DNA from: Theodoxus fluviatilis
Lineage: Eukaryota; Mollusca; Gastropoda; Cycloneritida; Neritidae
NCBI GenBank assembly: GCA_034096865.1
Contig: JAWQFJ010026616.1
Location: 1 to 64,000, forward strand
DNA length: 64,000 bases
Reading direction: 5' to 3'
This document shows, one piece after another, positions 4,567 to 60,857 of the stretch. Every line of letters starts with the position of its first letter. The first letter of the stretch is position 1. The translations under genes and the position numbers were made by a program. The notes under the pieces are model-generated. The model saw nothing but the letters and a program-made list of their open reading frames with translations. It made no database searches and was not told the DNA's origin.

Positions 4567-4659
4567 CAACCAACACGCCCTGCATTCATAGCAAGCACTT
4601 AATGAAGGTGACAAGCACCTGTAAGATCTTTGGATGATCGGAGTTTGTGTGCCGTTGAC

Positions 4660-5010
4660 AGCTTGAAAGGATAAAGGTTTTCACTATCATATAGTCCCAC
4701 ATCGCGCTGTGGTGGGTGCTCATACAACACACGTTTATTCCCTGGTCACAGGGCCACTCTTACAATCGCTCACTCAACTGATAGGGTGCATGCAAACAGG
4801 CTGCGGAAGAATGAGCCATGGTTGATTTCATAATTGTCCCCCTCAGCCCTCACACGTACTCATTTTAACTCCTAGGTAGAGAGAGAAACGATGCGAGTCA
4901 ACGCTTTCTCAAGGATGCAATTCTGTTATCGGTGCAGCTTCGAACGTCACGCCCTCTAGCCACAAACGAGTGCATGTCAAGCGTGCTAACAACTCGGCAA
5001 GAAAGTAATG
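4660..5010 (-). mobile_element. Old tRNA-derived SINE-like copy, left arm
   Basis: Read on the minus strand, a degenerate A-box-like stretch (about 4990-5010), a B-box-like GTTCGAAGCTGC (about 4940-4955) and a CTTGAG..TTAACTC segment match the younger SINE at 54459. The same copy is mirrored at 60440-60790, so it predates the arm split. Confidence 0.55.
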
Positions 5011-5086
5011 TGTGTGTGTGTATTGCACCTGTTCTGCAATGTTCCTGTTTCATGCAGTGATGCTGAATCATATCTTTCATTAACAG

Positions 5087-5563
5087 TTCATGGATGACGC
5101 AACGCCCTCCATAAGGGCTCAGCGTGTATCGCGCAACGACCATATGAAAATCATACTGATGGCACATATGCCTAACTCCAAGCACTTTATCTCTACCATT
5201 GGACAGTGCGCCTGTGCCAAAGCAAGCCAGTCTTTGCAAGTCTCTGATGTTGAAATCGCTCTTGAGATAAATATGTCGCTTGCACCTTTCAACGTACGGG
5301 TAAAACATTTGGATGGAATTCCGTGTGACGAAAACTCGTACACAGTAGAAGGGGTGGAAAGTAAACACGTGTGGCATTTCCTGAAGTCCCTCTGCCTCCT
5401 GGCTGCCAGTGAGCTCACGGAGCAAGGCTTCAGGGTGGCGGTCCGACTGGATCCTCGCATCGAGGCAGGCTGTCGAGGAGAGCTGGAGGCTGCTGGCACG
5501 ATCGGTGCACTGCGGACAATCTACAAGTTCTCCTTCCTGGACAACCAGGTGGTCATGTACTGA
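5087..5563 (+). CDS. Unidentified terminal exon (159 codons, intact in left arm)
   Basis: Starts after a convincing splice acceptor (ATCTTTCATTAACAG) and stays open to a TGA at 5561-5563. The product begins F-M-DDATPSIRAQRV and ends FSFLDNQVVMY; it mixes alternating hydrophobic stretches with Glu/Arg-rich helices. I do not recognise the family. The Met near the start is probably internal, because the mirrored copy has GTG (Val) there. The right-arm copy keeps only the first half. No upstream exon of the same gene is recognisable between 4000 and 5000, so the rest of the gene may lie outside the window. Confidence 0.5.
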   Translation, partial: FMDDATPSIRAQRVSRNDHMKIILMAHMPNSKHFISTIGQCACAKASQSLQVSDVEIALEINMSLAPFNVRVKHLDGIPCDENSYTVEGVESKHVWHFLKSLCLLAASELTEQGFRVAVRLDPRIEAGCRGELEAAGTIGALRTIYKFSFLDNQVVMY

Positions 5564-5708
5564 GTGCGGGAACAGTGACAACCAGGTGAAATCTCCATGT
5601 CCAATGTCCTGTCACCATCTTTGATTGGAAATGAGGTTGTCCTTGATGTTAGGAAGGCTCTTAAACTCTTCTTTCCTGTAGACTCAGCTAATGCACGAAA
5701 ACAAATGT

Positions 5709-5734
5709 CATGTGCACACACACATGCACGTACA

Positions 5735-5787
<53 letters not shown>

Positions 5788-5790
5788 ACT
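5709..5790. repeat. (CA)n microsatellite
   Basis: Runs of CA with few interruptions; the mirrored (GT)n lies at 59898-60002 and is longer and differently interrupted. Confidence 0.95.
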
Positions 5791-6239
5791 ATCACTATCG
5801 GCGCCATTCATGTTTCTTGAACATTTGTTGGTAAGCATGTCAAAACGAGTTTGTGGGTGTTTAAATATATAGTTTTATAAATACATATATGAAATACAGA
5901 GCTTGAAATGTTTGACTCCGTGCAACATTTCAAAAGAAAACGCATAATTGCAAGGCAGTCAGATTGTGCTTCATTGATTAGCAATTCACAAATGATTTTT
6001 TGGTACATATCTATTTTTTGCATATATACGCTTTAAATCCTATACTTTTTATGAATTCAACGCGTTGTGTTTGTTCTATGAAGTATGTAATGGTACACAG
6101 AATAATGCAAAATATTTGCTTTTAGTAATAGACTTCTTATAGGTGGATAAACTTAGAAAATCCTTGTCTCGAGCGTCTAGGACGAAAAGCCTGTGATCAA
6201 AAAGGAAAAGTCCTATCTGAAGCCTCAGAACATCATCTT

Positions 6240-6334
6240 TTGGTGGTGGTGGTGGTGTTAGTAGTAGTAGTAGTAGTAGTGGTAGTAGAAGAAGTAGTAA
6301 TACTAGTAGTAGTAGTAGTAGTAGAAGTAGTAGC

Positions 6335-6369
<35 letters not shown>

Positions 6370-6372
6370 CAA

Positions 6373-6420
<48 letters not shown>

Positions 6421-6540
6421 CAGAAGAAGTAGTAGTAGTAGTAGTAGTAGCAGAAGTAGTAGTAGTAGTAGTGGTGGTGGTGGTGGTAGTAGAAGTATTA
6501 CTAGTAGTAGTGGAGGTAGTCGTAGTAGTGGTGGTAGTCA

Positions 6541-6596
<56 letters not shown>

Positions 6597-6625
6597 CATG
6601 CAGTAGTAGTCGTGGTAGTCATCAT
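6240..6625. repeat. (AGT)n trinucleotide microsatellite, left block
   Basis: About 385 bp of AGT with GGT, AGA and AGC variants. The mirrored (CTA)n block is 58538-58720. Long Val or Thr homopolymer ORFs here are repeat artefacts. Confidence 0.95.
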
Positions 6626-6662
6626 CATCATGGCTTTGCCTCGTTTATGAAGATCTGGAAGG

Positions 6663-58530: not shown

Positions 58531-58537
58531 TTCGTAC

Positions 58538-58618
58538 TACTAGTACAACGACGACGACGACGACTATGCTACTACTACTATGACTACCACCATTACTACT
58601 AGTACATCTATTACCACC

Positions 58619-58651
<33 letters not shown>

Positions 58652-58664
58652 GTTACTACTACTG

Positions 58665-58703
<39 letters not shown>

Positions 58704-58720
58704 ACACCACCACCACCACC
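58538..58720. repeat. (CTA)n/(CAC)n microsatellite, right arm
   Basis: Mirror of 6240-6625, less than half as long. Confidence 0.95.
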
Positions 58721-59004
58721 AAAAAATGATGTTCTGAGGCTTCAGATAGGACTTTTCTTGTTGATCACAGGCTTTTCGTCCTAGACGCTCGAGACAAGGA
58801 TTTTCTAAGTTTATCCACCCATAAGTTGTCTATTACTGAAAGCAAATATTTTGCATTATTCTAAATACCATTACATACTTCAGAGAACAAACACAACGCG
58901 TCGAATTCATAAAAATTATAGGATTTAAAGCCGATATATGCAAAAAATAGATATAAGTACCAAAAAAAACATTTGTGAATTGCTAATCAATGAAGCACCA
59001 AAAC

Positions 59005-59731
59005 GTTCATCACATCCCTTGTTCTGTCTCGTCTCGACTATGGAAACTCTCTTCTCGCTGGCATCCCTGACACTCTGCTTAACAAACTCCAGAAAGTTCA
59101 GAATTGTGCTGCTAGGCTAGTTTTTCGATGTCCCAAGCGTACCCATGTCTCTCCACTCCTACATACACTTCACTGGCTCCCCATCTCTCAGAGGATAGAT
59201 TATAAACTTGCTACTTTGTGCTTCAAGGCCATCAACAACACCGCACCACACGCTCTTACAGAAATTCTTACAGTCTACACGCCCTCCAGATCTCTACGCT
59301 CAGCTGCTGACTCTAGAATGCTTAAGGTCCCCCGCCGTAACAAGAAAACTCAAGGACAGCGTGCCTTCTCCTATATTGGACCTGTAACCTGGAATAGTCT
59401 CCCTCTCTCAGTCCGTCATTCTGACACTCTGCCCCAGTTCAAAAGTGCTCTAAAGACCCACCTCTTCCGATCCGCCTTTCCCGCTGAGCTGCTTCGCCTT
59501 ACTTGACCTGGCCTGCAAGTGCTGTGTATATTGTATAGTTTGTTCTATTGGATCTTAGTTTTGTTTTTTGTTTATGTGTGTAGTGTGTGAGTTTTTGTAG
59601 GAATGTGGTGTTGAGCGGTTGTATGAGTGTTGATTCTTTGAATTGTAAACGCCATGAGCTTGCCTGTCAAGGGAAGGTATGTGCGTATGAATAAACTATA
59701 TTATTATAATAATAATTATTATTATTATTAT
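59005..59731 (+). mobile_element. 5'-truncated LINE 3' end, right arm only
   Basis: Encodes the C-terminal part common in CR1/L2-like elements: LDYGNSLLAGIP, VQNCAARLVF, LHTLHWLPISQRIDYKLATL, YTPSRSLRSAADSR and GPVTWNSLPLSVR (clean from 59216 to 59506), then a 3' UTR and an (ATT)n tail. The left arm has the empty site near 5970. Confidence 0.9.
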
Positions 59732-59894
59732 TGCCTTGCAATTATACGTTTTCTTTTGAAATGTTGCATGGAGTCAAACATTTCAAGCTCTGTATTTCAT
59801 ATGTATTTATAAAAATATATATTAAAAAACCCACAAACTCGTTTGGACATGCTTACCAACAAATGCCCAAGAAACATTAATGGCGCCGATAGTG

Positions 59895-59897
<3 letters not shown>

Positions 59898-59967
<70 letters not shown>

Positions 59968-60002
59968 TGTGTGTGTGTATGTATGTGTGTGTGTGTGTGC
60001 AT
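59898..60002. repeat. (GT)n microsatellite, right arm
   Basis: Mirror of 5709-5790. Confidence 0.95.
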
Positions 60003-60046
60003 GTGCGTGTATGCACATGACATTTGTTTTCGTGTTTTAGCCGACC

Positions 60047-60352
60047 CTACTCCATCTGTTGTACTGTGCTTTGTAATGTCCATCTACAATGCCTAGAGTG
60101 TGAGCTTTGGTCAAATATGGTTCCATCCAAATCTTTTACTTGTACGTTGAAAGGTGAAAGCGACATATCTATCTCAAGAACGATTTCGACATCAGAGACT
60201 TGGAAAGACGCTTTTGCTTTGGCAATGGCCCACTGTCCAATGGTGGAGATAAGATTGTCGGAGCTGGGAATAAATGCCATCAGATACTTTTTCATTTTGT
60301 CGTTGTGAAATACACGCTGAACTCTTATGGAGGGCGTTGCGTCATCCACGAA
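60047..60352 (-). pseudogene. Truncated mirrored copy of the unidentified exon at 5087-5563
   Basis: After the same acceptor (TTAACAG) it reads F-V-DDATPSIRVQRV and stays similar for about 75 codons to VKDLDG. It then diverges and stops, because about 330 bp of the left sequence are missing. Amino-acid differences are many (about 25%), far more than between the DFFB copies. Confidence 0.6.
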
Positions 60353-60439
60353 CTGTTAATGAAAAGATGTGACTCAGCATCACTGCATGAAACAGGAACA
60401 ATGCAGAACAGGTGCAATACACACACACACACACAGTGC

Positions 60440-60790
60440 TTACTTGCAGAGTGATTAGCACGCTTGACATGCACTCACTTGTGGCTAGAGGGTGTGACGT
60501 TCGAAGCTGCACAGATCCCAGAATTACATTCTTGAGCGAGCGTTAACTCACATTGTTTCTCTCTCTACCAAAGGAGTTAATGTGAGTACATGCGAGGGCT
60601 GAGGGGAACAATTGCATGCTTTACATCAGCTGAAAGAGCGATTGTAAGAGTGGTCCTGTGTCGAGGGAATAAACGTGTGTTGTATGAGCACTCCCCACAG
60701 CGCGATGTGGGACTATATATATATGACAGTGAAAACCTCCATCCTTTCAAGCTGTCAACAGCACACAAACTCCGATCATCCAAAGATCTT
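60440..60790 (+). mobile_element. Old tRNA-derived SINE-like copy, right arm
   Basis: Mirror of 4660-5010; A-box-like GAGTGATTAGCACGCTTGAC and B-box-like GACGTTCGAAGCTGC. Confidence 0.55.
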
Positions 60791-60857
60791 AGATGTGCTT
60801 GACGCCTTCATTGAGTGCTTGCTATGAACGCAGGGCGTGTGGGTTGCATAGAAGAAA

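Follow-up and report, generated by a model that had tools for sequence, protein, structure and literature searches.

A 56-kb palindromic contig of the gastropod Theodoxus fluviatilis is probably a false join of two alleles at an inverted pair of transposable elements

Introduction

When an assembled contig reads as one giant palindrome, does it describe a chromosome or an error in putting the sequence together? The question is raised by contig JAWQFJ010026616.1 of the Theodoxus fluviatilis assembly GCA_034096865.1 (66,263 bp, referred to below as C15443), of which we analysed bases 1–64000, called the window throughout. Almost the whole of the window is one inverted repeat, each arm of which carries exons 2–6 of DFFB, the gene for caspase-activated DNase, an apoptotic nuclease. 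The arms meet at two mirrored copies of a transposable element with terminal inverted repeats (TIRs). Taken at face value, the contig holds a giant palindrome and a duplicated, 5′-truncated apoptotic nuclease gene, both of which are most likely false.

We conclude that the palindrome is most probably a false foldback join of two allelic copies of the locus, made at the inverted element pair, and not a structure of the chromosome. A missing first exon, a break-off of some other contig inside the same repeat and target-site duplications that correspond across contigs together offer a cheap test for palindromes of this kind, one that needs no sequencing reads.

Results

When the window was compared with itself, the outermost inverted match paired 4567–4782 with 60846–60625, and inverted matches continued inward from there to the centre, the longest of them placing 19901–42357 on itself over 22.5 kb at 99.3% identity. 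Loosely collinear inverted matches of at least 150 bp each cover 23,860 of the 26,560 bases of 4567–31126. At E 1e-20, no inverted match appeared in any of five controls made by shuffling the window in 10-bp blocks, and a chance origin was set aside for that reason. These matches confirm the first-pass annotation in its claim of a palindrome filling nearly the whole window around 31127–31140. Its further claim, that gene and repeat order is kept throughout the arms, fails toward the outside, where ∼6.6–8.7 kb on the left and 55.6–58.4 kb on the right hold different sequence resembling long interspersed nuclear elements (LINEs), with 49–69% identity when an alignment is forced.

The DFFB gene gives the first indication of what is missing from the contig. 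With full-length Gigantopelta P0006 as the query against the whole assembly (965,456,814 bases in 19,668 contigs), the DFFB search returned 11 matches at E up to 10, with 13 of 13 candidates scored. Two sets of exons 2–6 were recovered, both of them on C15443, and a single exon 1, at C654:142271–142411. Since exon 1 was not found between exon 2 and the centre, and in neither arm, the centre falls within intron 1. Placed ahead of exons 2–6 of either arm, the C654 exon 1 continues in frame for 339 residues to the stop codon, and the two 339-residue proteins are identical: the arms differ by three synonymous codons (155, 193 and 200) and no non-synonymous one in 882 bases. The protein is unremarkable when set against known DFFB (CAD, DFF40; PF02017 plus PF09230). 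The second half of PF02017 lies in the arm, its first half is on C654 by alignment, and PF09230 is spread over three exons; the domains, the exon-by-exon alignment and the length are all like those of mollusc orthologues, 13 of 14 of which have 336–341 amino acids and a similar N-terminus (the remaining one has 291 and a different N-terminus). What differs from known DFFB is that the exons are split across two contigs.

Contig C654 (144,380 bp) ends ∼2 kb beyond DFFB exon 1, after entering a copy of the same TIR element: its final 160 bp are 96–97% identical to the element end and are preceded by ...ATTCA. The end region of C654 around exon 1 has one full-length match in the assembly (best 40 of 599 candidates scored), and a 3.4-kb piece of the inner arm has two, which are the two arms themselves (best 40 of 1,441 candidates scored). 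As in a misjoin, the true neighbour of the join is found on another contig, one that ends inside an element copy. In the first 1,000 bases of the next-numbered contigs, C655 and C15444, nothing matched the window, the end of C654 or the TIR element.

The bases between the two central elements connect the contigs further. Read in the direction of the left-arm gene, the 14-bp spacer starts with TCA, the bases in which the flank on C654 ends, and its last three bases are CAT, which is the target duplication of the left-arm element (CAT/CAT in this direction). The TCA shared by the spacer start and the C654 flank end would otherwise be a 1 in 64 coincidence. The target duplications of C654 and C15443 are compatible with two insertions into a single intron, separated by a few bases. 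We call the left-arm element TE2, its mirror X and the second, neighbouring insertion TE1; X is read as a TE1/TE2 chimera formed at the join, since it carries the outer flank of TE2 plus the inner flank of TE1. With ∼233-bp TIRs and 3-bp duplications in 8 of 12 copies, the elements belong among TIR elements like miniature inverted-repeat transposable elements. The 12 are those with two readable ends (exact 3-bp flanking repeats at four of five in one set and four of seven in another), truncated pieces being set aside together with two mirror elements, the right one of C15443 and the left one of contig C16706, neither of which has a 3-bp repeat; with the mirror elements included the count becomes 8 of 14. 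Two of the seven elements in the second set sit in copies of another repeat and are not independent.

Two simpler accounts of the centre were rejected. A fixed composite element is contradicted by an exact pattern search for perfect element ends 0–30 bp apart, which matched only at the C15443 centre, and by the different spacers of other element pairs. A simple switch within the TIRs of one element would leave a single element interior, and two are present.

These observations suggest how the contig may have come about. In the true locus, C654 with DFFB exon 1 would be followed by TE1, then AACATGCC, then TE2 and exon 2, and after that by exons 3–6. TE1 and TE2 would lie in opposite orientation, with 8 bp of host sequence and the duplicated target bases between them, and would together make a near-perfect 1.75-kb inverted repeat inside DFFB intron 1; the element at the end of C654 would be TE1. 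The fold presumably arose either in the library, from a molecule that folded back at the element pair, or in the assembler, which would have followed a mirrored path. Exons 2–6 of one haplotype would then have been joined to exons 2–6 of the other, and the exon-1 side would have been left as a separate contig ending inside TE1. In an alternative form, both haplotypes would have extended a foldback molecule outward. The first-pass annotation, too, had taken a false or foldback join of haplotypes as its first choice, and that choice is supported by the lone exon 1 on the element-ending C654, by the reading frame, by the target duplications and by C16706, described below.

From 10.5 kb to the centre, the arms differ in the manner of alleles. 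The substitution rates of seven successive zones are 2.16, 1.76, 2.93, 0.0, 2.14, 0.0 and 0.18%, with tandem repeats excluded and 17.4–19.0 kb omitted as tandem repeats. Such abrupt steps between 0 and 2–3% suit alleles in a recombining population, and from this mosaic of 0–3% divergence, with no non-synonymous change in DFFB, we infer that the arms are two alleles. The outermost segment, which is ∼14% diverged, lacks this allele-like difference. At least seven insertions had been noted earlier; inserts are present and proved more numerous, with 16 unbroken gaps of at least 45 bp between the arms, nine with the extra sequence in the right arm and seven with it in the left, of which those inside the unalignable zone carry little meaning.

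A search with the palindrome centre (best 40 of 2,191 candidates scored) found four other contigs matching across the element–element junction: C950, C18698, C16706 and C13605. We examined 20 kb around the junctions of C950, C18698 and C16706 and the first 9,999 bases of C13605, which reach 1 kb past the element. C16706 holds a second palindrome, at ∼1–19,725, at whose centre two inverted copies of this TIR element enclose the spacer ACTATATA. Its two elements differ in 53 of 922 columns, the last difference being at 886, and the flanking sequences are mirror images with 99.7% identity over 1.79 kb. Since the elements differ while the flanks mirror, the first element is a different insertion. 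The onset of the mirror lies at the end of this first element or at most a few tens of bases inside it, which, judged from the sequence, is what a jump between two inverted element copies could produce. Around the elements of C950, C18698 and C13605, the stretches examined hold no long palindrome; inverted matches on C950 are confined to one repetitive set of low identity (∼80%), and a separate 242-bp palindrome lies on C18698 away from its element pair.

Head-to-head arrangements of whole or partial TIR elements, at most 14 bp apart, occur on C950, C18698, C13605, C16706 and C15443, contigs that came from a search with such a junction, so that no frequency estimate follows. Several insertions sit within short CAGAGA...TCTCTG-like palindromes. 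The head-to-head spacing and these sites point to a possible target preference of the element.

Discussion

A number of observations weigh against a false join of two alleles, and they concern the divergence of the arms, their outer ends and the element copies. The innermost ∼7.4 kb of the arms are near-identical (8/6,793 substitutions, versus 195/10,374 farther out). Two haplotypes by themselves would not necessarily produce this. It is expected if a foldback molecule came from one haplotype and both haplotypes extended it outward, and it would also follow from gene conversion in a real palindrome. The contrast between coding and non-coding divergence is weak (3/882 versus 83/8,918, p = 0.086). 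At the outer ends, the ∼14% DNA divergence of the outermost segment is too great for ordinary alleles, and a coding-like stretch in it has 66% protein identity over 87 residues between the arms. The earlier claim that exon changes are synonymous only therefore stands for DFFB and falls for this stretch, and the interpretation of the arms as alleles is without a good account of the outermost divergence. Homology also stops short of the long terminal repeat (LTR) retroelement at the contig start: between that element and the first homologous base (4567) lie 667 bp for which no counterpart was found in the right arm, so the stop cannot simply be put down to the insertion of the LTR element.

The element copies raise further difficulties. 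The C654 element differs from the outer end of X at 6 of 160 sites, counted by eye; the C654 copy is therefore not the same copy as X, and the outer end of TE1 lies outside the window. Of the 12 elements readable at both ends, 4 lack the 3-bp flanking repeat. Both borders of the first element in C16706 carry the 5-bp sequence ACTAT, and this element may for that reason have genuinely inserted into a pre-existing mirror. Outside its elements, C16706 resembles C15443 in that the inner arms are more alike. A partner contig end is predicted for C16706, and no fitting one was found: an exact pattern matched in 7 places, all of them farther than 1,500 bp from the end of a contig.

Of the rival explanations, the one that survives best is a real germline palindrome, in which the DFFB region would have undergone inverted duplication by foldback or break repair at the element pair and gene conversion would keep the inner arms alike while the outer arms diverge. 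We consider it unlikely. The drop in identity from ∼99.9% close to the centre to 86% in the outermost segment, and the similar trend of C16706, speak for it, as does the fact that both arms lose homology at a single point (4567/60846), beyond which their flanks differ. The right end of the contig extends 5.4 kb past the homology. The 5-bp repeat on both borders of the first C16706 element, which could have landed in an older mirror, counts in the same direction. Tanaka et al. 2002 are said to have reported inverted repeats as seeds of large palindromes, which would also favour a germline origin. Such a palindrome would need an ordinary DFFB in addition, made of C654 and a third set of exons 2–6 that was collapsed or left unassembled, yet no third set was found, though the C654 exon 1 needs one. 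Neither DFFB copy has exon 1, yet there is no non-synonymous change or frame break between them. Blocks of 0% beside blocks of 2–3% are as expected of recombining alleles, and the event would need to have occurred at least twice at the same element family. In a broader version of this idea, inverted TIR pairs would repeatedly seed real palindromes (at least C15443 and C16706), and gene conversion proceeding outward from the centre would give the gradient. That, too, seems improbable to us; if it were true, DFFB would exist as one intact copy and two 5′-truncated copies.

More doubtful still is a rearrangement made by the transposase (alternative transposition), which would join the outer end of TE1 to the sequence flanking the outer end of TE2 and would be limited to a subset of chromosomes or cells. 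In agreement with it, the C16706 mirror begins at or near the outer end of an element, and its first element is otherwise a different copy. However, the two elements share their last 36 bp, which permits an ordinary homology-based switch at that place, and any long product would form an arm with two centromeres or none. We regard this explanation as very unlikely. That the arms are diverged duplicates from two genomic places, wrongly joined at the element, is scarcely credible: the outer end, with 14% DNA divergence, 66% protein identity and no other protein match in the assembly, would agree with it, but 10.5–31 kb differs by 0–3%, the DFFB proteins are identical and only one exon 1 was found.

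Published reports describe related phenomena, and a false join of two alleles shares features with two of them. False haplotype (‘heterotype’) duplications are known in genome assemblies (Genome Biol 2022, PMC9516828); there, as here, two copies of one region, allele-like in C15443 from 10.5 kb to the centre, appear duplicated, and here, unlike there, they meet head to head at a pair of inverted elements. Foldback artefact reads are known from PacBio and Nanopore sequencing, can tangle assembly graphs and have, according to the authors, library preparation as their most likely source (BMC Genomics 2026, PMC12870357). They share with C15443 a near-perfect mirror around a point. A single folded molecule on its own was nevertheless rejected as the source of the contig, since it cannot give private inserts together with the 2–3% differences farther out between the arms, for which two haplotypes are needed. 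The palindromes of sex chromosomes are described as undergoing arm-to-arm gene conversion and reaching arm identities of >99.9% and >99% (PMC3723533, PMC8981503). C15443 is likewise a large inverted repeat with very high identity near its centre. Its arms, in contrast to the >99% identity along the arms and the complete genes expected of the Y/X type, range from ∼100% to 86% and carry a gene that is without exon 1 in both. Among the literature matches surveyed, which were a part of those returned, none described palindromic contigs at inverted transposable-element pairs, a weak negative.

Other features of the window and the assembly

Table 1. Positions of the inverted repeat, the DFFB exons and other features in the window
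Feature	Position	Strand	Remarks
Left arm of inverted repeat	4567..31126	+	self-comparison, arm alignment
Right arm of inverted repeat	31141..60857	-	last matched base 60846
Unpaired centre, 14 bp	31127..31140	.	between two mirrored 871-bp elements
TIR element TE2, left arm, 871 bp	30256..31126	-	∼233-bp terminal inverted repeats, ATG/ATG 3-bp duplication
Mirror element X	31141..32011	+	3 differences from TE2; bordered by TGA and CAT, 3-bp duplication absent
Left arm DFFB exon 2, second half of CIDE-N domain	29100..29229	-	PF02017
Left arm DFFB exon 3	24029..24223	-	alignment
Left arm DFFB exon 4	22902..22981	-	alignment
Left arm DFFB exon 5, catalytic domain	20178..20452	-	alignment
Left arm DFFB exon 6 and stop codon	17695..17896	-	alignment
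Right arm DFFB exon 2	33039..33168	+	assembly search
Right arm DFFB exon 3	38045..38239	+	assembly search
Right arm DFFB exon 4	39283..39362	+	assembly search
Right arm DFFB exon 5	41806..42080	+	assembly search
Right arm DFFB exon 6 and stop codon	44434..44635	+	assembly search
Insertion private to right arm, 141 bp	43955..44095 (approximate)	.	13-bp flanking repeat, AAC-rich end
Insertion private to right arm, 1,255 bp	52315..53569 (approximate)	.	10-bp flanking repeat
Outermost homologous segment, left arm	4567..5318	.	∼14% diverged from 60121-60846
LTR retroelement at contig start	1..3899	+	gag-like open reading frame 1-2379

Toward the outer ends of the arms, an open reading frame at 5084–5560 (159 amino acids) follows a plausible splice acceptor and has a diverged, truncated partner at 60095–60355; no database relative was found for it at E 0.001 (19 candidates). 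The outermost segment as a whole had no other match in a DNA search of the assembly (best 40 of 2,861 candidates scored), and its protein had no third match there (two matches; 7 of 7 candidates scored). Among the matches listed for the LTR repeat at the contig start, most copies end near 3899, and a direct pair 3.5–4.6 kb apart is present on seven contigs. On C1485, at 58,137–62,634, two LTR copies, both 96% identical to the query, are inverted and 3.6 kb apart, and this pair, unlike the direct pairs on the seven contigs, possibly marks another folded contig.

Within the arms, a 677-bp element that is a spacerless palindrome, 99.0% self-complementary, occurs once per arm (24368–25044 and 37224–37900). 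The window holds no RNA family at the gathering score and no tRNA. At its right edge, an open reading frame at 63632–64000 encodes a PHD finger (PF00628) and lies near LINE-like sequence.

Six contigs have sizes that are exact multiples of 2,500: C18698, C2500, C6500, C14500, C15500 and C18500 (145000, 72500, 27500, 12500, 15000 and 65000). Five of these came from 20 sampled contigs, all of them at least 10.8 kb long, and C18698 was seen separately; the sizes may mean that a program split the assembly at regular intervals. Of four COX1-family matches in the assembly, the one on C10175, translated with code 5, is 99% identical to Clithon retropictum, which marks the host as a neritid snail. Finally, C17463 and C10939 carry COX1-family genes that have no internal TGA codons and look bacterial, which points to the possible presence of microbial sequence within the assembly.

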